From contig NC_017583.1 of NCBI RefSeq assembly GCF_000184345.1, forward strand, positions 2,418,001-2,482,000: 64,000 bases of DNA, in the 5' to 3' direction. The notes under the pieces are model-generated. The model saw only the letters and a program-made list of their open reading frames with translations. It searched no databases and was not told the origin of the DNA. The stretch is from Spirochaeta thermophila DSM 6578 (lineage in GTDB: Bacteria; Spirochaetota; Spirochaetia; Winmispirales; Winmispiraceae). Shown in pieces: positions 71 to 23,413 of the stretch. Every line of letters starts with the position of its first letter. The first letter of the stretch is position 1. A program made the translations under genes and the position numbers.

Positions 71-1213
71 ATGCGCGTCAACTTTCAGGTGCCCATCCTT
101 CGTAGCAAGATAGGAGTGATAGGTGCGGGTGCATGGGGCACCGCCATTGCCCAGGTCGTGGCAGAGAAAGGCCACCACGTCGATCTTTGGGTGTACGAAC
201 AGGAGGTGGCGGAAGAGATCAACCGGCTCCACGAGAACATGAGGTATCTGCCCGGTGTGAGGCTCTCCTCCCGGATCCGCGCCACCACGGACCTCGCGGA
301 AGCGGTACAGAAGAAGGAATACCTCCTCCTCGTCCCCCCTTCCCCCTTTCTCCTGAAGATCACCTCCGGCATTTCCTCTCTACCCGACATCACGAAAGGG
401 AGACCCATCATCGCGGTGTTCACCAAGGGGTTCATTCCGGACGAGGGAGGCAGACCCAGACTCATCCTGGAGGCCATGGAGGAACACCTCCCTCCTTTCT
501 ACAAGGACAACCTCGTCTACGTCTCAGGTCCTTCCCACGCGGAAGAAGTGGGAAGGGGGAAACTCACCGGGCTCATCAGCGCCTCCAAGAACCCCAAGCA
601 CAGCATCAAGGTGCGCAATCTCCTCACGAGCCATAGACTCCTCGTCTTCTCCAGCCTCGATACCATCGGCGTGCAGGTGAGTGCGGCCATCAAGAACGTG
701 ATCGCCATCGCCTTCGGGGTGCTCGACGCACTCATCGAAACCGGCTCCGAGTTCGTGGGTGACAACACAGAATCGCTCCTCCTCGCCGCGGGCCTCAACG
801 AGATCCAGGCCCTCGGCACGGCCATGGGCTCCACCCACCCGGAGACCTTCACGTCCATCGCCGGGGTGGGAGACCTCGACGTCACATGCCGGAGTAAGTA
901 CGGGAGGAACCGAAGGTTCGGGAGGGAGATCCTCCTCAAGAACATCCTGAGACCTTTCAAGGACATAGACGATCTCATCCGCAACATCTCCAGGCTCGAC
1001 TACCTCCCGGAAGGGGTCTTCGCGGCGACCCACGCCCACACCCTCGCAAAGACCTACAACCTCAGGCTCCCGATCATAAGGAGCGTCTACCGCATCCTCA
1101 ACAAGGAGGATCAGCCGGTCGACATCATCGAGGACCTCCTGGTGAAACTCCTCACACGCACGAGGAACACCGGTCTCATCGAGCGGTTCAGGGATCGTTT
1201 CCTGAAGGACTGA
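71..1213 (+). CDS. gpsA: Glycerol-3-phosphate dehydrogenase [NAD(P)+]
   Basis: Reduces dihydroxyacetone phosphate to sn-glycerol 3-phosphate in the cytosol, supplying the backbone for phospholipids. The protein has 380 residues. The dinucleotide-binding motif IGAGAWG is at residues 17-23, the conserved VFTKG at 116-120, GPSHAEE at 153-159 and the catalytic lysine in SAAIKN at 208. It is longer than the roughly 335 residues typical of GpsA; the extra length is spread over the middle and C-terminal parts. The start is supported by a ribosome binding site AAAGGAG at 57-63. The last 26 bases overlap the convergent radical SAM gene. The family call is firm. Confidence 0.96.
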   Translation: MRVNFQVPILRSKIGVIGAGAWGTAIAQVVAEKGHHVDLWVYEQEVAEEINRLHENMRYLPGVRLSSRIRATTDLAEAVQKKEYLLLVPPSPFLLKITSGISSLPDITKGRPIIAVFTKGFIPDEGGRPRLILEAMEEHLPPFYKDNLVYVSGPSHAEEVGRGKLTGLISASKNPKHSIKVRNLLTSHRLLVFSSLDTIGVQVSAAIKNVIAIAFGVLDALIETGSEFVGDNTESLLLAAGLNEIQALGTAMGSTHPETFTSIAGVGDLDVTCRSKYGRNRRFGREILLKNILRPFKDIDDLIRNISRLDYLPEGVFAATHAHTLAKTYNLRLPIIRSVYRILNKEDQPVDIIEDLLVKLLTRTRNTGLIERFRDRFLKD

Positions 1214-2567
1214 GAGCCCGGATCCGGGCGTTCCGTTCCCGGACCTTTCGCTTGAGGCACTCGAGATCGAAGAAGGTAAACCCCTCCCATTCGAGGGGGA
1301 AGATGGAATTGTTGTGGAAGAGGGGCTCGTGCGCGATGGGATACCTCGATCGCCGAACACTCTCCTCCCAGAGGGAGGTCCCGGGGATCGGGGAGTACTC
1401 GGCGAGGGAGACGAGCACCGGCAGGTCCTCCAACGCCGAGAGGGTCCGCTCCACCTCGTCACTTCTCTGCCCCGGAAGTCCCACCAGGACGTATACGACG
1501 ATCGACGAGGGGGGAAACCCCGCCTCCCTGAGGATCTCCACGGCCCTCAAGAACTCCCCGCTCGTCACCTTCCGATCGTAGCGGGTGTGGAATCCCTCCT
1601 CCGCGCTCTCGAACCCCACACGGACCTCGCGGAACCCTGCCCGCACCATGAGGGAGGCGGTCCGCCTGTCGAGGAACCGTGCGTGGAGGGCATTGGGTAC
1701 GTAGAAGGAGAGGCCCGATCTCGTTGCCGAGCCGAGGCGTGAGAGGACCTGTTCGAGGAAAGGCAGGAGACCTTCCTCCTTTCCCACCAGCAGGGCATCG
1801 TCGTAGAAGGCGAAGGTGGAGGTGCTGCACCGCGAACGGTAGTCCATCAAGAGATCGAAGAGCGCATCCCCTCTCCCCGGGACGAATCGGGAGAGCCGGG
1901 ACGAGGCACAGTAGGTGCACCGATAGGGACATCCCTGATGGAGCCGAAGCACTCCGGCCTCGCGCCACACCCGTTCGAGGAGGAGGGGGCGGTCGGGGAC
2001 GACTCCCTGTGGAACGGGAAGCCCCTCCTTCCCGAGGGCCGACCGGAGGGCCTCGAGATCGTCGCCCTGCACGATCACGTCGGGTCGCACGACCTCTTCG
2101 CAGTGCCGGGGGAGGAGGGAGGCATACACCCCTCCCACGACGAGGAGGGACCCGGGAAAGCGTCTCCGTATCAGATCCGCCGCCTCCTTCACTCCGGGAT
2201 ACCAGTACGTCATACCCGAACCTATGAGCACCACCGAAGGCGGGTCCTTCGGATACCAGGAGGAGAGGATCTCCTCCACCCGTTCGGGGAGGATGCCATA
2301 GCGTGCGAACCTCCGGCGCGCCCCCGTGTAGGGAGGAGGGAGGGGGATCCTGAAGAACTTGCCCGTCCCATCGGGGCGTCGTCTCACCGCCCCGAGCACC
2401 TTCGCGGTGTAGACATCCCTGTAGTCCAGGCAGTCGAGGAAGCGCACCTCGTATCCCGCCTCTTCGAGCCACCGCCCCACACGCAGGAGCCCGTACGGTC
2501 TGAGGAAGAGGTCGAAGAGGGCGAAATCGTAGACGGGCGGCTGGATGAGGAGTGCAGAAGGAGGCAT
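1188..2567 (-). CDS. B12-binding-type radical SAM protein of unknown substrate
   Basis: A 459-residue protein. The N-terminal part (about 1-175) resembles the cobalamin-binding-like Rossmann domain found before many radical SAM domains (VLLIGSGMTYWYPGVKEA, then LLVVGGVYAS). A radical SAM core follows, with its [4Fe-4S] ligands in CPYRCTYC (Cys213, Cys217, Cys220). The canonical cobalamin DxHxxG motif is not evident, so B12 binding is uncertain. The ATG at 2567 shares one base with the stop codon of the upstream histidine kinase gene (TGATG), which suggests translational coupling. Longer upstream reading in this frame is just the antisense of that kinase gene. The reaction cannot be named from sequence. 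Confidence 0.85.
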   Translation of the reverse strand: MPPSALLIQPPVYDFALFDLFLRPYGLLRVGRWLEEAGYEVRFLDCLDYRDVYTAKVLGAVRRRPDGTGKFFRIPLPPPYTGARRRFARYGILPERVEEILSSWYPKDPPSVVLIGSGMTYWYPGVKEAADLIRRRFPGSLLVVGGVYASLLPRHCEEVVRPDVIVQGDDLEALRSALGKEGLPVPQGVVPDRPLLLERVWREAGVLRLHQGCPYRCTYCASSRLSRFVPGRGDALFDLLMDYRSRCSTSTFAFYDDALLVGKEEGLLPFLEQVLSRLGSATRSGLSFYVPNALHARFLDRRTASLMVRAGFREVRVGFESAEEGFHTRYDRKVTSGEFLRAVEILREAGFPPSSIVVYVLVGLPGQRSDEVERTLSALEDLPVLVSLAEYSPIPGTSLWEESVRRSRYPIAHEPLFHNNSIFPLEWEGFTFFDLECLKRKVRERNARIRALSPSGNDP

Positions 2568-3208
2568 CAGCGCACGAGGGGGAAGGTGACGAGCCAGGTC
2601 TTCTCTGCGGGTGAGAGCCTCAGGGACCCTCCCATCTGCCGTGTGAGAGCATCCACGAGGGCCATCCCCTCGCTCGAGGCATCCCCCTTCTCGAACGGGA
2701 GTCCGTCGTCGGTGAGAGAGAGGACGCCTTCTTCCCCCTTCCTCACGAGTGAGACCGTGATGGTACCGCCTTCGTGATCGAAGGCGTGTTTGAGCGCGTT
2801 CACCACCAGTTCGTGGACCAGGAGGAGGAGGGGAAGCGCCTGTCGGGGGGAAACCACGATGTCTTCGCAGTGCCATGAGAAGGACACGCCCCTCCCCTTG
2901 TAGAGGGGTGCCATCTCCTCCACGAGATGGGAGACGGCTCGGGAGAGATGGACCATTCCGCCTTCCGGCCGGAGTTCGAGGAAGGAGTAGAGATGAGCGA
3001 GACCGCGAAGCTGGGCGGCGACTTCCTCCAGGATCATACCCGACTCCTCGGGGAGGGATGCGGCCTTGAGCCGCATGTAGCTCACCAGGAGTGAGATGTC
3101 GTTCCGCACCCGGTGGGAGAGCTCCCTGTAGTGGAGGGCGTCATGCTCGGATGCATTCTCGTCCGGATGTGGAGATCGCACGGAGTTCGCATTTCGGTTC
3201 ATACGCAC
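2567..3208 (-). CDS. Small soluble sensor histidine kinase (HisKA_2/HWE-like), no sensor domain
   Basis: A 213-residue cytosolic kinase with no transmembrane segment. The phospho-acceptor box ELSHRVRNDI puts His32 in a HisKA_2-type dimerisation helix. The ATP-binding domain has an N-box ELVVNALKHAF with Asn137 and a D-box LTDDGLPFEKG. There is essentially no sensor domain before the H-box, only about 25 residues, so its input probably comes from a partner protein. No response regulator is adjacent. The gene is coupled to the downstream radical SAM gene by a TGATG overlap. The start follows an AGGGGTG ribosome binding site. The phosphorylation target is unknown. Confidence 0.85.
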   Translation of the reverse strand: MRMNRNANSVRSPHPDENASEHDALHYRELSHRVRNDISLLVSYMRLKAASLPEESGMILEEVAAQLRGLAHLYSFLELRPEGGMVHLSRAVSHLVEEMAPLYKGRGVSFSWHCEDIVVSPRQALPLLLLVHELVVNALKHAFDHEGGTITVSLVRKGEEGVLSLTDDGLPFEKGDASSEGMALVDALTRQMGGSLRLSPAEKTWLVTFPLVR

Positions 3209-3258
3209 CCCTCACCTTTTTATCGACACGTTCTTCGATAAGATTATCCCTATTCTAA
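3209..3258 (-). promoter_or_regulatory. Intergenic repeats upstream of the soluble histidine kinase
   Basis: On the minus strand the 9-mer AGGGATAAT occurs twice with a 15-base period (about 3244-3268), followed by an imperfect inverted repeat TATCGA/TCGATA (3221-3241). Both lie just before the kinase start. The direct repeats could be a regulator site or alternative -10 boxes (GATAAT). The role is inferred only from position. Confidence 0.35.
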
Positions 3259-15681: not shown

Positions 15682-15787
15682 TGTACTGCTCGTATCGCCG
15701 AATGAGCGCCCTGCAGTGTTCTATCTCGCGCTCCCAATGGGCGATCTTCTCCTCGAGCTGCCGGACCTCGTACTCTTCCTCCCTCAT
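15596..15787 (-). CDS. Small coiled-coil protein coupled to the TPR gene
   Basis: A 63-residue protein with a helical, heptad-like body (EYEVRQLEEKIAHWEREIEH, then RALIRRYEQYIRNAKARLHY) and a glycine-rich tail. The ATG overlaps the stop of the TPR gene as ATGA, which argues for a real, co-translated gene. Against this, 86 bases are antisense to the end of the Mut7-C gene, and the tail has low complexity. Function unknown. Confidence 0.55.
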   Translation of the reverse strand: MREEEYEVRQLEEKIAHWEREIEHCRALIRRYEQYIRNAKARLHYLLRDLHPGGKRGPGAGGG

Positions 15788-16344
15788 GAGGGCCCCCTCC
15801 TGCTCCCCCTCAGGGTCCTGAAGCGATCCCTCGCCTCCCGCTCCTTCTCCTCCTCCCCCAGTTCCTCATAGGTGTCCGCGAGATTGAACCAGGCGTCCTC
15901 GTACCCTGGATCGAGCTCCACCGCCTTCTCGAAACAGGCCCTCGCCTCCTCGTACCGCTCCTGCACGAAGGACAAGACGCCCAGCACGTTCCAGGCCCGT
16001 GCGGAGGCCGGCTCCTTCTCCACGGCCCTCCTGCACAGGACCTCGGCCTCGTCGAGTCGTTTCATCTCGAAGAGGCAGTAGGCGAGTTCCAAGAGGTACT
16101 CCGGTTTCTCCTCCTTGGAGACCGTGAGGGCGTTGCGCAGCGCCCGCTCCGCTGCTCCGTAGTCCCCCATACCCTCATACGCTATGGCGAGGTTGTAGTG
16201 AAGATCACCGGCGTTGGGCCGTTGCTGGATGAGGTTCTCCAGTATCCGAGCCGCCTCCACGAATTCCTTCCGTTCCGTGAGCTCGACGGCCCGAAGGTTG
16301 AGCTCGGCCACTGTCCGCTCGTCTATCGTACCCTCAAGTGCCAT
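15784..16344 (-). CDS. Tetratricopeptide repeat protein
   Basis: The 186-residue protein consists of about four TPR units: AARILENLIQQRPNAGDLHY, LAIAYEGMGDYGAAERALRNA, AYCLFEMKRLDEAEVLCRRA and VLSFVQERYEEARACFEKA, followed by DAWFNLADTYEELGEEEKE. TPRs are scaffolds for protein contacts; no enzymatic domain is seen. The start at 16344 has GAGGGAGGAAGAG before it. Reading on upstream in this frame is only antisense of the permease. Its promoter (TTGCAA, 17 bases, TACAAT) is at 16364-16392. Confidence 0.85.
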   Translation of the reverse strand: MALEGTIDERTVAELNLRAVELTERKEFVEAARILENLIQQRPNAGDLHYNLAIAYEGMGDYGAAERALRNALTVSKEEKPEYLLELAYCLFEMKRLDEAEVLCRRAVEKEPASARAWNVLGVLSFVQERYEEARACFEKAVELDPGYEDAWFNLADTYEELGEEEKEREARDRFRTLRGSRRGPS

Positions 16345-16363
16345 GGCTCTTCCTCCCTCTACA

Positions 16364-16392
16364 ATTGTAATCAGCAGATGGGGTCTTTGCAA
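16364..16392 (-). promoter_or_regulatory. Promoter of the TPR gene
   Basis: On the minus strand TTGCAA (16392-16387), a 17-base spacer and TACAAT (16369-16364). It lies back to back with the tRNA-Leu promoter. Confidence 0.65.
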
Positions 16393-16398
16393 ACAAGA

Positions 16399-16426
16399 TT
16401 GACAGGATCCACACTCATACGATAGC
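16399..16426 (+). promoter_or_regulatory. Candidate promoter of tRNA-Leu
   Basis: TTGACA at 16399-16404 is a perfect -35. The best -10 is GATAGC at 16421-16426 with a 16-base spacer. The tRNA begins 18 bases further on. Confidence 0.55.
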
Positions 16427-16444
16427 CTGATGTCATGCACATAC

Positions 16445-16528
16445 GCCGGCGTGGCGGAACCGGGAGACGCGGCAGACTCAAAATCTGCTGGACGCATGTC
16501 CGTGTGGGTTCGAGTCCCACCGCCGGCA
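16445..16528 (+). tRNA. tRNA-Leu (anticodon CAA)
   Basis: The acceptor stem GCCGGCG (16445-16451) pairs with CGCCGGC (16521-16527). The anticodon stem GCAGA/TCTGC encloses the loop CTCAAAA with anticodon CAA. A variable arm and the GGTTCGAGTCC T-arm are present; the length of 84 nt suits a class II tRNA. The discriminator base is A (16528) and CCA is not encoded. Confidence 0.93.
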
Positions 16529-16569
16529 CGACCCCCTCCTCCCCCTATTCCCTGCCTGAGAGGTGACGC

Positions 16570-18423
16570 ATGTCCCTGAAAAAAGGTCTTTCCACCCTCG
16601 AGGTCTTCAGCATCGCCACAGGAGCCATGATAAGCTCCGGGCTGTTCGTCCTCCCCTCCATCATCTACCGCGAGGCGGGAGTCGGACTCAGCCTCTCGTA
16701 CCTCCTCGCAGGCTTCCTCCTCCTCCCTGCGGTGTTTTCCCAGCTCGAACTCTCCACCGCCATGCCGAAGGCCGGTGGCAACTATCTCGCGGTGGAGCGC
16801 ATCCTGGGCACGGCCGCCGGGGTGGTGGCAGGGATCACCAATTGGCTCGCCATCAGCCTCAAGGCAGGGTTCGCCCTCATCGGGATAGGCACCTTCATGA
16901 CCCTCCTCTTCCCCCACCTCACCGAACAGGAGATCAAGCTCATCGCCATGGGGGCCTGTATCTTCTTCACCCTCCTCAATATCGTGAGCGTGGAATCCTC
17001 GGGCAAGGCACAGGTGATCATGGTGGGAGGACTCCTCGCGATCCTCGCCGCCTACATCCTCCTTGGGTACAGGGCCATGGACTTCTCCAACTTCGTGAAG
17101 GCCCCGGCCGGTGACATCCACAGGATCCTGGGGGCGGCAGGCACGGTGGTGATCTCCTATGGCGGCATCACCAAAGTGGCAAGCATCGCCGAAGAGGTGA
17201 AGGACCCCGGAAAGAATCTGGTACGGGGGATCATGCTCTCCTTCTGGGTGACCATCGCCTTCTACGCGCTCGCCGTACTCGTGACCCAGGGACTCCTCTC
17301 GCACGAGGAACTCACCTCCACCTACACCCCCATTTCCACCGCTGCAGGCAAGCTGGTGGGCCCGGTGGGCGTATGGCTCACCGGCCTCGCGACCCTCCTC
17401 GCCTTCATCACCACGGCGAACGCGGGGATCATGACCGCATCCCGCAACCCCCTCTCCATGGCTCGAGACGGCCTTCTCCCCTCCTTCTTCGGTCGCGTCT
17501 CGGGGAAGACCGGCACCCCCATCCCCTCGATCCTCACCACCTCCGCCGTCATCCTCGCCGTGGTGGCGGGCCTCTCCATCGAAAACTTCGCGAAGGTGGC
17601 CTCGCTCTTCATGCTCTTCACCTACATCCTCACCAACCTCTCGGTCATCGTGATGCGATATGCAGGCCTGGTGAACTACCGCCCCACCTTCAAAAGTCCC
17701 TTCTTCCCCGTACTCCACATCACGAGCATCGTAGTATACGCCATCCTCATCGTCGACATGGGAGTCCTCACCATCGCCATCGCAGGAGGGATCATCCTCC
17801 TCTCCCTCCTCTGGTACCTGGTCTACGCACGCACCCAGTCGAGGCGACGCTCGGCCTTCCTCCACATGGTCGCCCGCCTCACCAACAAGGAGATCGCGGG
17901 CGACGACCTCGAGGAAGAGCTCCTCTCCATACTCCTGGAACGCCACGATATCGTGGAAGACGAATTCGACAGACTCATCCGCGAGGCGTGGATCCTCGAT
18001 ATGGACCGGCCGGCCACTCAGGACGAGGTCTTCGAGATCCTCGCCCAGGCCATCGCGGAACGGATCGATATCCCCGTGGAGACGGCCCGCGAGAAACTCC
18101 TCACCCGCGAGCAGGAGGCCTCCACGATCATATTCCCGGGTATCGCCGTACCGCACGCCATACCTCACATCGTGGTGGAGGGTGAAGGGACTTTCGCGGT
18201 CTTCATCGTGCGCAACGTACACGGTATCACCTGGAACGACCAGACCGTATACACCGCCTTCTGTCTCGCCGGAAGCAAGGACAAGAGGGACCTCCACCTG
18301 AGGGCCCTCATGGCCATCGCCCAGATCGTGCAGACCAGAATCTTCACCGAGGAATGGCTCAAGGCCCGCAATCCGCAGGAACTCAAGACCATCCTCCTCC
18401 TCGCCGAAAGGAAACGCACCTGA
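16570..18423 (+). CDS. APC-family amino acid permease fused to a PTS EIIA-like domain
   Basis: A 617-residue integral membrane protein. Residues 1 to about 430 are an APC-superfamily transporter with about 12 helices: SIATGAMISSGLFVLPSIIY is the substrate-binding first helix motif, and SYGGITKVASIAEEVKDP is the conserved cytoplasmic motif. After a linker, the C-terminal 140 residues resemble PTS EIIA type 2 / EIIA-Ntr (LTREQEASTII...GIAVPHAIPH), with His529 at the phosphorylated position. The tail may regulate transport in response to PTS phosphorylation; this is inference. The ribosome binding site is GAGAGGTGA. The HAD gene follows 1 base after the stop codon. Confidence 0.88.
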   Translation: MSLKKGLSTLEVFSIATGAMISSGLFVLPSIIYREAGVGLSLSYLLAGFLLLPAVFSQLELSTAMPKAGGNYLAVERILGTAAGVVAGITNWLAISLKAGFALIGIGTFMTLLFPHLTEQEIKLIAMGACIFFTLLNIVSVESSGKAQVIMVGGLLAILAAYILLGYRAMDFSNFVKAPAGDIHRILGAAGTVVISYGGITKVASIAEEVKDPGKNLVRGIMLSFWVTIAFYALAVLVTQGLLSHEELTSTYTPISTAAGKLVGPVGVWLTGLATLLAFITTANAGIMTASRNPLSMARDGLLPSFFGRVSGKTGTPIPSILTTSAVILAVVAGLSIENFAKVASLFMLFTYILTNLSVIVMRYAGLVNYRPTFKSPFFPVLHITSIVVYAILIVDMGVLTIAIAGGIILLSLLWYLVYARTQSRRRSAFLHMVARLTNKEIAGDDLEEELLSILLERHDIVEDEFDRLIREAWILDMDRPATQDEVFEILAQAIAERIDIPVETAREKLLTREQEASTIIFPGIAVPHAIPHIVVEGEGTFAVFIVRNVHGITWNDQTVYTAFCLAGSKDKRDLHLRALMAIAQIVQTRIFTEEWLKARNPQELKTILLLAERKRT

Positions 18424-18424
18424 C

Positions 18425-19105
18425 ATGGGGAACCGCTACCGCATGATCTTCTTCGATCTCGACGGCACCCTCCTCGACTACGCACGGGCCGAGGCATGGG
18501 CCCTCGAGCAGGCCGTGCGCCACACCGGTCTCGGATGGACCCCGGAGGTGCTGGAACGCTACCGTCGCACCAACGCCGAGCTCTGGAGGGCCCTCGAGCA
18601 AGGACGAACCGACGCTGCCACGCTCACCCGTCGACGTTTCCAGGAAACCATCCCCTCCCTCTCCGACCGCGAGGCGGAACGTCTCAACAGCATCTACCTC
18701 TCCCACCTGGAGCAGGCGGGATTCCTCCTCCCCCACGCGGAGGAGACCCTCCTCTTCCTCTCATCCCGGTACCGCCTCGGCGCCCTCTCCAACGGCTTCT
18801 CCCGCATCCAGAGATCCCGGCTCAGAGCCGCAGGCATCGACACGTATCTCGCCTACGTGCTCACCTCGGAGGACGCCGGAACCGCGAAACCCGATCCCGC
18901 CTTCTTTGCCCGGGCTCTCAGGGACAACCGCCTCCGGCCGGGGGAGGCCCTCATGGTGGGTGACTCCCCCACCTCCGACATCGCAGGCGCCCTCGGCGCA
19001 GGCATGGATTCCTGCTGGATCTCACCCGGAGACGATTGCCCCCCGATTCCCCGCCCCACCTATCGGATCAGGAACCTCGAGGAACTCCGTACCATCCTCG
19101 GCTGA
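18425..19105 (+). CDS. HAD-family phosphatase, YjjG-like nucleotidase
   Basis: A 226-residue haloacid dehalogenase-type hydrolase. Motif I FFDLDGTLLDY holds the nucleophile Asp, motif II is GALSNGFSRI, motif III includes AGTAKPDPAFF and motif IV is MVGDSPTSDIAGA. The large all-helical cap and the SNGFSRIQRSRL segment resemble YjjG, a nucleotidase for unusual pyrimidine nucleotides. The neighbouring dCTP deaminase supports a nucleotide-related role but does not prove it. It starts one base after the permease stop codon and is probably co-transcribed. Confidence 0.83.
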   Translation: MGNRYRMIFFDLDGTLLDYARAEAWALEQAVRHTGLGWTPEVLERYRRTNAELWRALEQGRTDAATLTRRRFQETIPSLSDREAERLNSIYLSHLEQAGFLLPHAEETLLFLSSRYRLGALSNGFSRIQRSRLRAAGIDTYLAYVLTSEDAGTAKPDPAFFARALRDNRLRPGEALMVGDSPTSDIAGALGAGMDSCWISPGDDCPPIPRPTYRIRNLEELRTILG

Positions 19106-22068: not shown

Positions 22069-23413
22069 GGGACTGTAACATCGAGTGTTGAAAAAGGCGG
22101 GGAAAAAAGATAAGGGGTATCTCCCACCACACTAATCCTTTTTTCAAGGAGGAGATACCCCATGAAGCGTGGTAACACACGCACACTGATTGAGACACAG
22201 TATACCCTCTCTGATCTGATGAAACAAGTGGAAGACCAGCTACGGGAGGAGGTGCGCCACACCTACAAGACGTACCTGGAACACCTCCTTGAGACGCTGA
22301 GAGAGGAGGCAGTAGGACGACCACGATATGCACGAGGGGAGCCTGAGAAAGGGCAGTACTACCGGTACGGCTACAGAAAGTGGAAGAGCGTGCAGACCCC
22401 CTGGGGGCCGATCGAGGAGGTACGCGTGCCCCGCATTCGCACCGGCGGGGGGAAGGAGGTAAAGCTGGTGACCTACGAGCAGAGGCTCGTGGCCCTCGCC
22501 GAGCAGCTCCTTCTCGGGTATGTGGGAGGGATGAGCGCGCGGACGTGGGCCATCCTGTTACGGGAGCTGGGGATAGGCGAGGCTCACCCGCAGACACTCC
22601 TGCGGCTCATAAAGCGTCTTCGTGAGGAGAAGGAGCAGTGGCGGAGGAGGTCCCTTAGAGGAGTGAAGGCCCTTGTGCTGGATGGAGTGTGGGCAAAGAG
22701 GCGTGGGAGGGGTCAGAAGAAGCTGGTTGTCCTGAGTGCCGTGGGGGTGAAGGAGGACGGATCTCATGAGCTCCTCGACTGGGTCGTTGCGGAGCAGGAG
22801 GACCAGGCGAGCTACGAGCGACTCCTTACCAGGCTCTATGAGCGAGGGCTTCATGAGGTGGAGCTGGTGGTGGCCGATGAGGCTGAGGGGATCCGGCAGG
22901 CCGTGGAGACGGTGTATCCTGAGGCGAAGAAGCAGGTGTGTCTCTGGCACCTGCAGGGTACGCTTGAGCAGAAGCTCCTGCAGGACATGGGGGAACGGAA
23001 GGGGAAGAACGCAGACCTCCAGAAGGAGAGGCGAGCTTTTCGAGCGGAGTACTGGAAGCTCTTTGAGGCAGGAGGGAAGGAGGACGCAGCACGTGCGTTG
23101 GAGGCATTCGTGAAGAAGTGGGCGGCGAAGGCTCCCCGGATGACGGCCTCCCTCCTGTGGCGGAAGGACCGGCTTTTCTCCTATCTGGAGTTACCCTATG
23201 AGTGGAAGGAGAAGGTGAGGACGAGCAACCTTGCGGAGAACATGTTTCGGCACATGAGAAGCTTTCTACGGAGGTATCCTGGGTATATGAGCCATGCCCA
23301 TGCAGATGAGGTGGTAGGCCTCTACGTGGTGGGCATGCAGGTGATACAAGAGGTGGGGAGACGCACCCCTTATCAGCTCCAGCTCAATTTCAACACTCCC
23401 CCTTGACAATCCC
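22069..23413 (+). mobile_element. IS256-family insertion sequence, copy 1 (1345 bp)
   Basis: Complete element bounded by an 8-bp duplication. The left end GGGACTGTAAC...GAGTGTTGAAA and the inverted right end GGGATTGTCAAG...GAGTGTTGAAA form imperfect terminal repeats of about 25 bases. One intact Mutator-type transposase gene fills it. The leader between the left end and the ATG differs from that of the two copies at 45-49 kb, so it is a separate lineage. It lies between an rluA-type gene and tRNA-Ala. Confidence 0.93.
22162..23406 (+). CDS. IS256-family transposase (copy 1)
   Basis: The 414-residue Mutator-type DDE transposase has Asp174 in LVLDGVWAKRRG, Asp239 in LVVADEAEGI and Glu359 in SNLAENMFRHMRSF. 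The conserved C-x2-H pair is Cys260/His263 (QVCLWHLQ). All catalytic residues are present and the frame is open, so it may be active. The ATG follows AAGGAGGAG. It differs from copies A and B at scattered residues (for example in the region 275-310). Confidence 0.95.
   Translation: MKRGNTRTLIETQYTLSDLMKQVEDQLREEVRHTYKTYLEHLLETLREEAVGRPRYARGEPEKGQYYRYGYRKWKSVQTPWGPIEEVRVPRIRTGGGKEVKLVTYEQRLVALAEQLLLGYVGGMSARTWAILLRELGIGEAHPQTLLRLIKRLREEKEQWRRRSLRGVKALVLDGVWAKRRGRGQKKLVVLSAVGVKEDGSHELLDWVVAEQEDQASYERLLTRLYERGLHEVELVVADEAEGIRQAVETVYPEAKKQVCLWHLQGTLEQKLLQDMGERKGKNADLQKERRAFRAEYWKLFEAGGKEDAARALEAFVKKWAAKAPRMTASLLWRKDRLFSYLELPYEWKEKVRTSNLAENMFRHMRSFLRRYPGYMSHAHADEVVGLYVVGMQVIQEVGRRTPYQLQLNFNTPP

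Follow-up and report, generated by a model that had tools for sequence, protein, structure and literature searches.

According to a 2023 review, no bacterial transporter other than LacS is known to be regulated through direct phosphorylation of the transporter protein, and a table of that review gives the effect of phosphorylation on LacS transport as inhibitory (PMC10710835). LacS and RafP are described as carrying PF00358, with the IIA domain being needed for full activity (PMC2848229). For PTS-Ntr, a further review associates higher amino-acid uptake with the phosphorylated state and connects the system with K+ balance as well (PMC13104625). The gene analysed here lies in a 64,000-nucleotide stretch of the genome of Spirochaeta thermophila DSM 6578, which is referred to as the window. 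It resembles LacS and RafP in that an EIIA domain is fused to the C-terminus of a secondary transporter that is not part of the PTS, and the HPr-phosphorylated domains of those two proteins may serve as a model for how it works. The parts differ, however, as LacS and RafP are described as GPH symporters with a IIA-Glc domain of family PF00358, whereas here an APC permease is combined with PF00359. The folds of PF00358 and PF00359 are not known to be related, and the domain composition of the LacS type is not found in this gene, in which Pfam gives AA_permease families and PF00359 only.

Three other groups of proteins invite comparison. With PtsN, or EIIA-Ntr, the tail shares the modelled fold, the 16-residue spacing from Arg to His, a later conserved His and, probably, a role in reading out the PTS that involves no sugar transport. 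It differs from PtsN in its fusion to a transporter, its N-terminal stalk and its doubled His motif, and it scores 33.2 bits against the 221-bit cut-off of the PtsN equivalog NF008145 (NCBIfam). The permease domain resembles GkApcT-like, ApcT and LAT-type transporters in sequence and modelled fold, but the phmmer and Foldseek matches to these span the permease part only, and none of them has an EIIA tail. Lastly, the same phylum has Na+/H+-exchanger-type antiporters that end in an EIIA type-2 domain (L079 and L085 by Pfam; L080, L082, L088 and L089 by eye). L079 and L085 are membrane transporters that, like the product of our gene, carry the EIIA type 2 domain C-terminally, but they score about 47-54 bits on the profile of the module described below, mainly through the EIIA part, against at least 150 for the 52 strong matches. 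Among the open-licence PMC papers listed, no account of an APC-EIIA or AtpA-EIIA fusion was found, and domain-architecture databases may well list both.

Domain architecture and predicted fold

The open reading frame is unbroken and starts with ATG, and its coordinates include the stop codon (Table 1). The preliminary description had read it as an APC-type transporter carrying a C-terminal EIIA type 2/Ntr-like domain, and this reading holds, as both domains score above their Pfam cut-offs (AA_permease_2, E 1e-39, 137.1 bits against 27; PTS_EIIA_2, PF00359, E 2e-18, 67.2 bits against 27) and both folds are supported by searches with predicted models. Several amino-acid transporter families of NCBIfam were also matched, all below their cut-offs among the 25 matches listed, the best being TIGR00909 with 179.9 of 556.8 bits. 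The full-length AlphaFold model was built on a 10-row alignment and has a mean pLDDT of 80.4; the tail was modelled separately. In Foldseek, the permease part of the full predicted model matched 5oqt_A, a cationic amino-acid transporter homologue (E 5.4e-19, target TM 0.83), and LAT-type transporters were among the further matches. A structural model of the tail, which had been proposed as a check on the EIIA assignment, found the solved EIIA-Ntr 1a6j_A as its top match (E 6e-9, target TM 0.78). The stalk is modelled as largely helical, part of it at low confidence.

The tail model (window 17842-18420) also resembles, more weakly than it does EIIA-Ntr, the cytoplasmic domains of band 3 and other SLC4 anion exchangers (Foldseek), a further case of an EIIA-like domain joined to a transporter. 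SLC4 anion exchangers are not known to be phosphorylated by a PTS.

Table 1. Features discussed in the text. Positions without a locus handle refer to the window.
Feature	Position	Strand	Basis
Whole gene: APC permease - helical stalk - EIIA type 2, 617 aa	16570..18423	+	ORF list, Pfam, NCBIfam
APC permease domain, residues 7-402	16588..17775	+	Pfam AA_permease_2; Foldseek best match 5oqt
Stalk, residues 425-477	17842..18000	+	aligned across permease and AtpA fusions
PTS EIIA type-2 domain, residues 478-609	18001..18396	+	Pfam PTS_EIIA_2; Foldseek EIIA-Ntr 1a6j
Arg513	18106..18108	+	aligned with 1a6j Arg, 16 residues before active-site His; Arg in 72/77 module genes
Doubled phospho-His motif AVPH-AIPH (candidate sites His529 and His533)	18145..18168	+	sequence; one tree branch; 17/77 genes
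Trp555, goes with doubled motif	18232..18234	+	W in 17/17 doubled genes
His576 (LHL)	18295..18297	+	aligned with later His of 1a6j; His in 66/77 module genes
HAD phosphatase, YjjG-like nucleotidase	18425..19105	+	NCBIfam TIGR02254, 188.8 bits, cut-off 159.9
HTH_17-EIIA gene and second EIIA gene, in row with Na_H_Exchanger-CBS gene	L021
HTH_17-EIIA gene of that row (HTH_17 DNA-binding domain fused to EIIA)	L021 5396-6235	+
EIIA gene adjoining Na_H_Exchanger gene	L024
EIIA-CBS gene overlapping CitMHS/ArsB-type ORF	L025
AtpA-EIIA, 751-aa frame (732 aa from ATG)	L065 (G255) 980-3232	-	three F1 alpha Pfam domains, then EIIA
AtpA-EIIA, 747-aa frame (729 aa from ATG)	L076 (G285) 321-2561	+	three F1 alpha Pfam domains, then EIIA
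AtpA-EIIA, ends at contig edge	L078 (G044) 995-2203	-	Pfam

The active site and its doubled histidine motif

In the phmmer alignment, His529 of GIAVPHA falls on the His of GIAIPHG in EIIA-Ntr 1a6j, and the spacing of 16 residues from Arg to His, counted from the alignment, is the same in the query tail and in 1a6j. The conservation of His529, on which the preliminary description had rested its proposal of a phosphorylatable site, is borne out both by this alignment and by the module genes defined below, 70 of 77 of which (counted as distinct genes) keep the active-site His. The residue is indeed retained in GIAVPHA as described, but it is not the sole candidate phosphorylation site, as the motif is doubled and His533 lies next to it. 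The query reads GIAVPH-AIPH-IVVEG, and the two 12-bp halves that encode the repeated four residues are identical at 10 of 12 bases. Relatives with a single motif read, for instance, GLAIPHIVV, to which either copy in the query can be aligned; MAFFT places the gap on the first copy. Residues 523-526 of the active-site loop have a pLDDT below 50 in the AlphaFold model, and because this loop is of low confidence, the predicted model does not tell which of His529 and His533 occupies the site.

The doubled motif is shared by 17 of the 77 distinct module genes, and the Arg and the later His are present in all 17. A tree of 62 tails, in which 15 distinct doubled genes were represented (two by duplicate entries), is divided by a single branch into the doubled genes and all the rest (support 100/99), and the motif-type label changes once on this tree against a mean of 15.1 after shuffling. 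Pairwise identity within the doubled group of the tree falls as low as 44%. The tree thus allows, but does not prove, a single origin of the doubled motif. Position 555 is Trp in every doubled gene, whereas it is Phe in 48 of the 51 single-motif genes, a set from which L107, the truncated L017 and the seven genes lacking the His are excluded. Across ten loci with a doubled motif, the codons vary while the residues are nearly constant. The four other EIIA type-2 domains of the same genome have a single PH motif each. Two loci hold tandem permease-EIIA pairs in which both copies have the doubled His (L048/L059 on G094:C37 and L050/L062 on G066:C29).

Occurrence of the stalk-EIIA module

A profile comprising the stalk and EIIA (A2) was searched in 392 genomes of the same phylum, and at least 40 of these contain matches with an E value no higher than 1.4e-45, at least 52 in all; the 52 are a lower bound, as usually at most eight candidates were scored per genome. 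These strong matches are set apart by a gap in score, being followed by one match at 3.5e-21 (G214) and then by ordinary EIIAs from 8.6e-19 onward, and the tally of 337 of 392 genomes at 1e-8 consists mostly of ordinary EIIAs. Stalk and EIIA are conserved jointly as one module, and L447, E450, L451, I454 and D477 of the stalk are invariant across the nine sequences of A2. The partner is a permease, as recognised by profile, in 48 of the 52 strong matches, F1 alpha in three and an unrecognised membrane part in one (L069 of G005), whose N-terminal part is matched by neither the permease profile nor Pfam; no free-standing module was found among the 52. Two or three A2 matches occur together in at least 10 of the 40 genomes, and single and doubled motif types lie side by side in G039, G074, G360 and G379.

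Relatives matched across residues of both domains were also found in 11 further public records, in nine of them in one unbroken frame; the frame of L013 is interrupted, and L017 ends at a contig edge. By their titles, 7 of the 11 records belong to Spirochaetaceae or Spirochaetales and the others to NPL-UPA2, Actinomycetota, Actinomycetes and Phycisphaerae. A fusion by chance or by assembly error is ruled out because relatives with both domains exist in these 11 other records and the fusion recurs across the phylum.

Variants of the architecture were seen as well. An extra C-terminal TrkA_C domain is present on two permease-EIIA proteins (L077 776-2914, minus strand, by Pfam; L018 5983-8073, plus strand, by eye), and these forms score 73 and 97 bits on the module profile. 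In the same phylum, an EIIA type-2 domain is fused to a DAC domain (L086 1962-3413, plus strand, Pfam), which we take to be of the c-di-AMP synthase type.

The fusions to the alpha subunit of F1 ATP synthase place the module on a machine other than a transporter. The stalk, too, can be aligned between the AtpA and permease fusions, and the Arg, the active-site His and the later His are all kept in the AtpA-EIIA genes L065, L076, L078 and L113. In G255 and in G285, no F1 alpha besides the fused one scores above the curated cut-off. In G285 the fusion has the delta (OSCP) gene on one side and the gamma gene on the other, in an F-type row with a, b, beta-type and epsilon-type genes, and delta and gamma genes likewise flank it in G255. 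Eight genomes of the order of G255 were searched, and a complete fusion was found in G255 (751-aa frame) and G442 (748-aa frame); G441 and G447 hold contig-end fragments whose scores fit the AtpA-EIIA type and which are candidates for single genes, and the other four genomes have matches solely in frames of 621-642 aa, the one read in each being of the permease type. In the tree of tails, L065, L076 and L078 group together on a branch of their own (100/100), a pattern as expected from a single fusion event. Taken together, these sequences suggest that the stalk-EIIA module is a reusable metabolic switch across transporter and F1 alpha, a portable switch rather than a part of the transport machinery, because the same module sits on F1 alpha.

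PTS relay, proposed mechanism and gene neighbourhood

A search of the genome (one contig, 2,560,222 bp) for ptsP/ptsI and HPr, which the preliminary description had called for, found an EI and an HPr. The profile search gave one HPr gene (C1:2502774-2503013), which sits in a row of Ribosomal_S30AE, HPr kinase and HPr genes (L023), and one EI, a 606-aa frame with both the N- and C-terminal domains, which matches at C1:985886-987490; a second PEP-utilizers_C match lies within an 890-aa frame. The search for PTS sugar-permease components covered PTS_EIIC (PF02378), which gave zero matches across the genome. There are five EIIA type 2 domains in the genome, every one of them in a transporter gene or a transporter gene row.

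The reading that we consider probable is that the gene encodes a secondary APC-type transporter with a cis-acting PTS switch that is phosphorylated by HPr~P, and we favour it because the module sits on two unrelated machines, its catalytic residues are intact almost throughout, one class excepted, and the EIIAs of the genome are all found at transporters. Its observed basis consists of the architecture, the modelled fold, the conservation of catalytic residues, the presence of the relay, the lack of a PF02378 match in the genome and the reuse of the module, from which we infer the phosphorylation, the gating and its sign, and the amino-acid substrate. EI would take phosphate from PEP and transfer it to HPr, and HPr~P would in turn phosphorylate the active-site His of the C-terminal EIIA, which may be His529, His533 or both. 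The phosphate would presumably stop at the EIIA and not be passed on to a sugar, because PTS_EIIC was not found. The phosphorylation state would then report on PEP supply and on the HPr-Ser-P formed by HPr kinase, and it may set transport by shifting the position of the EIIA and its helical stalk on the cytoplasmic side of the permease. Our guess as to the sign is that the unphosphorylated domain restrains the permease and that phosphate releases it, but the two signs are nearly even because LacS is listed as inhibited by phosphorylation, while the phosphorylated state of PTS-Ntr is tied to more amino-acid uptake.

If this reading is correct, the protein would be a second directly phosphorylation-controlled transporter after LacS, differing from it in both the transporter and the EIIA, and it would provide a concrete output for a PTS in which no PTS_EIIC permease was detected. 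Having the transporter and the switch in one chain would allow them to be purified and labelled, and the idea that the PTS directly controls an ATP synthase could be tested on the AtpA fusion. More tentatively, and with less confidence than we attach to the single gene, a portable PTS-readout module might serve unrelated energy machines, APC permeases and F1 alpha, so that PEP-derived phosphate would set uptake and ATP synthase/ATPase activity in cis, with the acceptor doubled (HAIPH) in one old branch, that of the query, and doubled ever since, to give a two-phosphate site or a phosphate/metal switch.

The alternative that survives best, although we hold it to be doubtful, leaves the cis switch in place and departs from it in the substrate alone, in that the cargo would be something other than an amino acid, for example K+ or a polyamine, and the PTS would be tied to ion or osmotic balance. 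PTS-Ntr is reported to control K+ balance (PMC13104625), the other EIIA genes of the genome lie beside cation-antiporter-type and CitMHS-type genes, and TrkA_C has been added in two relatives (L077 by Pfam, L018 by eye). In both sequence and structure, however, the permease domain matches amino-acid transporters best, among them 5oqt, LAT2, LAT1 and ApcT.

Whether the tail is still a phosphoacceptor bears on a second alternative, in which it would be a structural or ligand-sensing pseudo-EIIA for which phosphorylation is no longer relevant. In favour of the cis switch, HPr and EI are each present in 48 of 52 module-bearing genomes and in 28 of 28 of those with a completeness of 90% or more and a contamination of 5% or less (the 11 public-record genomes carry no completeness rating), and the frequency of HPr may be the background level of the phylum. 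HPr was undetected in G054 (60% complete), G214 (67%), G396 and G397, and EI in G054, G053 (77%), G396 and G397. Within this set the tail His is lost only in G396 and G397, both without HPr, and the set thus fitted a strict rule by which the genomes with HPr, and no others, keep the His. The class of G397, in which 7 of 40 genomes have the module and HPr was detected in 5 of 40, breaks this rule. Of its five new module genomes, G407, G409, G410 and G434 lack the His and G408 keeps it. HPr was found in G409 and G410 but detected in none of G407, G408 and G434; two of the five therefore have HPr without the His and one has the His without detected HPr. Overall, HPr is present in 48 of 51 His-keeping genomes against 2 of 6 His-lacking ones (Fisher p = 0.0012, kinship ignored), and at the level of sequence the retention of the His goes with HPr as a tendency resting on one class rather than as a rule. 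All seven His losses among the 77 module genes fall within this one class and may represent few events.

The domain persists in that class even though 7 of its 8 genes are without the active-site His and all 8 are without the later His, and this persistence, together with the weaker Foldseek match to SLC4 cytoplasmic domains, would be in keeping with a pseudo-EIIA. We nevertheless regard a pseudo-EIIA as unlikely, as the active-site His is present in all 69 genes outside the class and the motif is doubled in the branch of the query.

About as unlikely, in our judgement, is a tail that HPr does phosphorylate but that does not gate its own permease, acting instead as a membrane-anchored EIIA that binds antiporters or regulators, or as a phosphate buffer. 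The four further EIIA-2 domains around ion transporters in the genome would make cross-talk possible, and the same module is found on an unrelated enzyme, F1 alpha, but the lack of a free-standing module among the 52 strong matches favours action in cis. Membership in a sugar-transporting PTS, to which the EIIA fold of the model and the conserved His could point, is highly improbable given that the membrane part is an APC permease and that PF02378, the sole EIIC family searched, has no match in the genome.

The surroundings of the gene encoding the putative cis switch add little. The HAD gene begins one base past the permease-EIIA stop codon and is perhaps co-transcribed with it, but it has no known link to the PTS. 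Its copies are 95% identical in a locus of the same genus (L093) and 45% identical in one of the same family (L094). The Mut7-C, TPR-like, HAD and dCTP-deaminase-like neighbours are all present in the former, only the last two are present in the latter, and all four are absent from the 11 public-record loci, several of which have short flanks. With its neighbours so patchily shared, the gene neighbourhood is uninformative on function. On the opposite strand, an 880-aa frame (window 15784-18426, minus strand) overlaps the entire permease gene; by eye, only its 3' part at about 15784-16344, which is TPR-like, looks real, and the remainder runs antisense to the permease gene and the tRNA-Leu. Further along, a 414-aa ORF (window 22162-23406, plus strand) appears by eye to be transposase-like.
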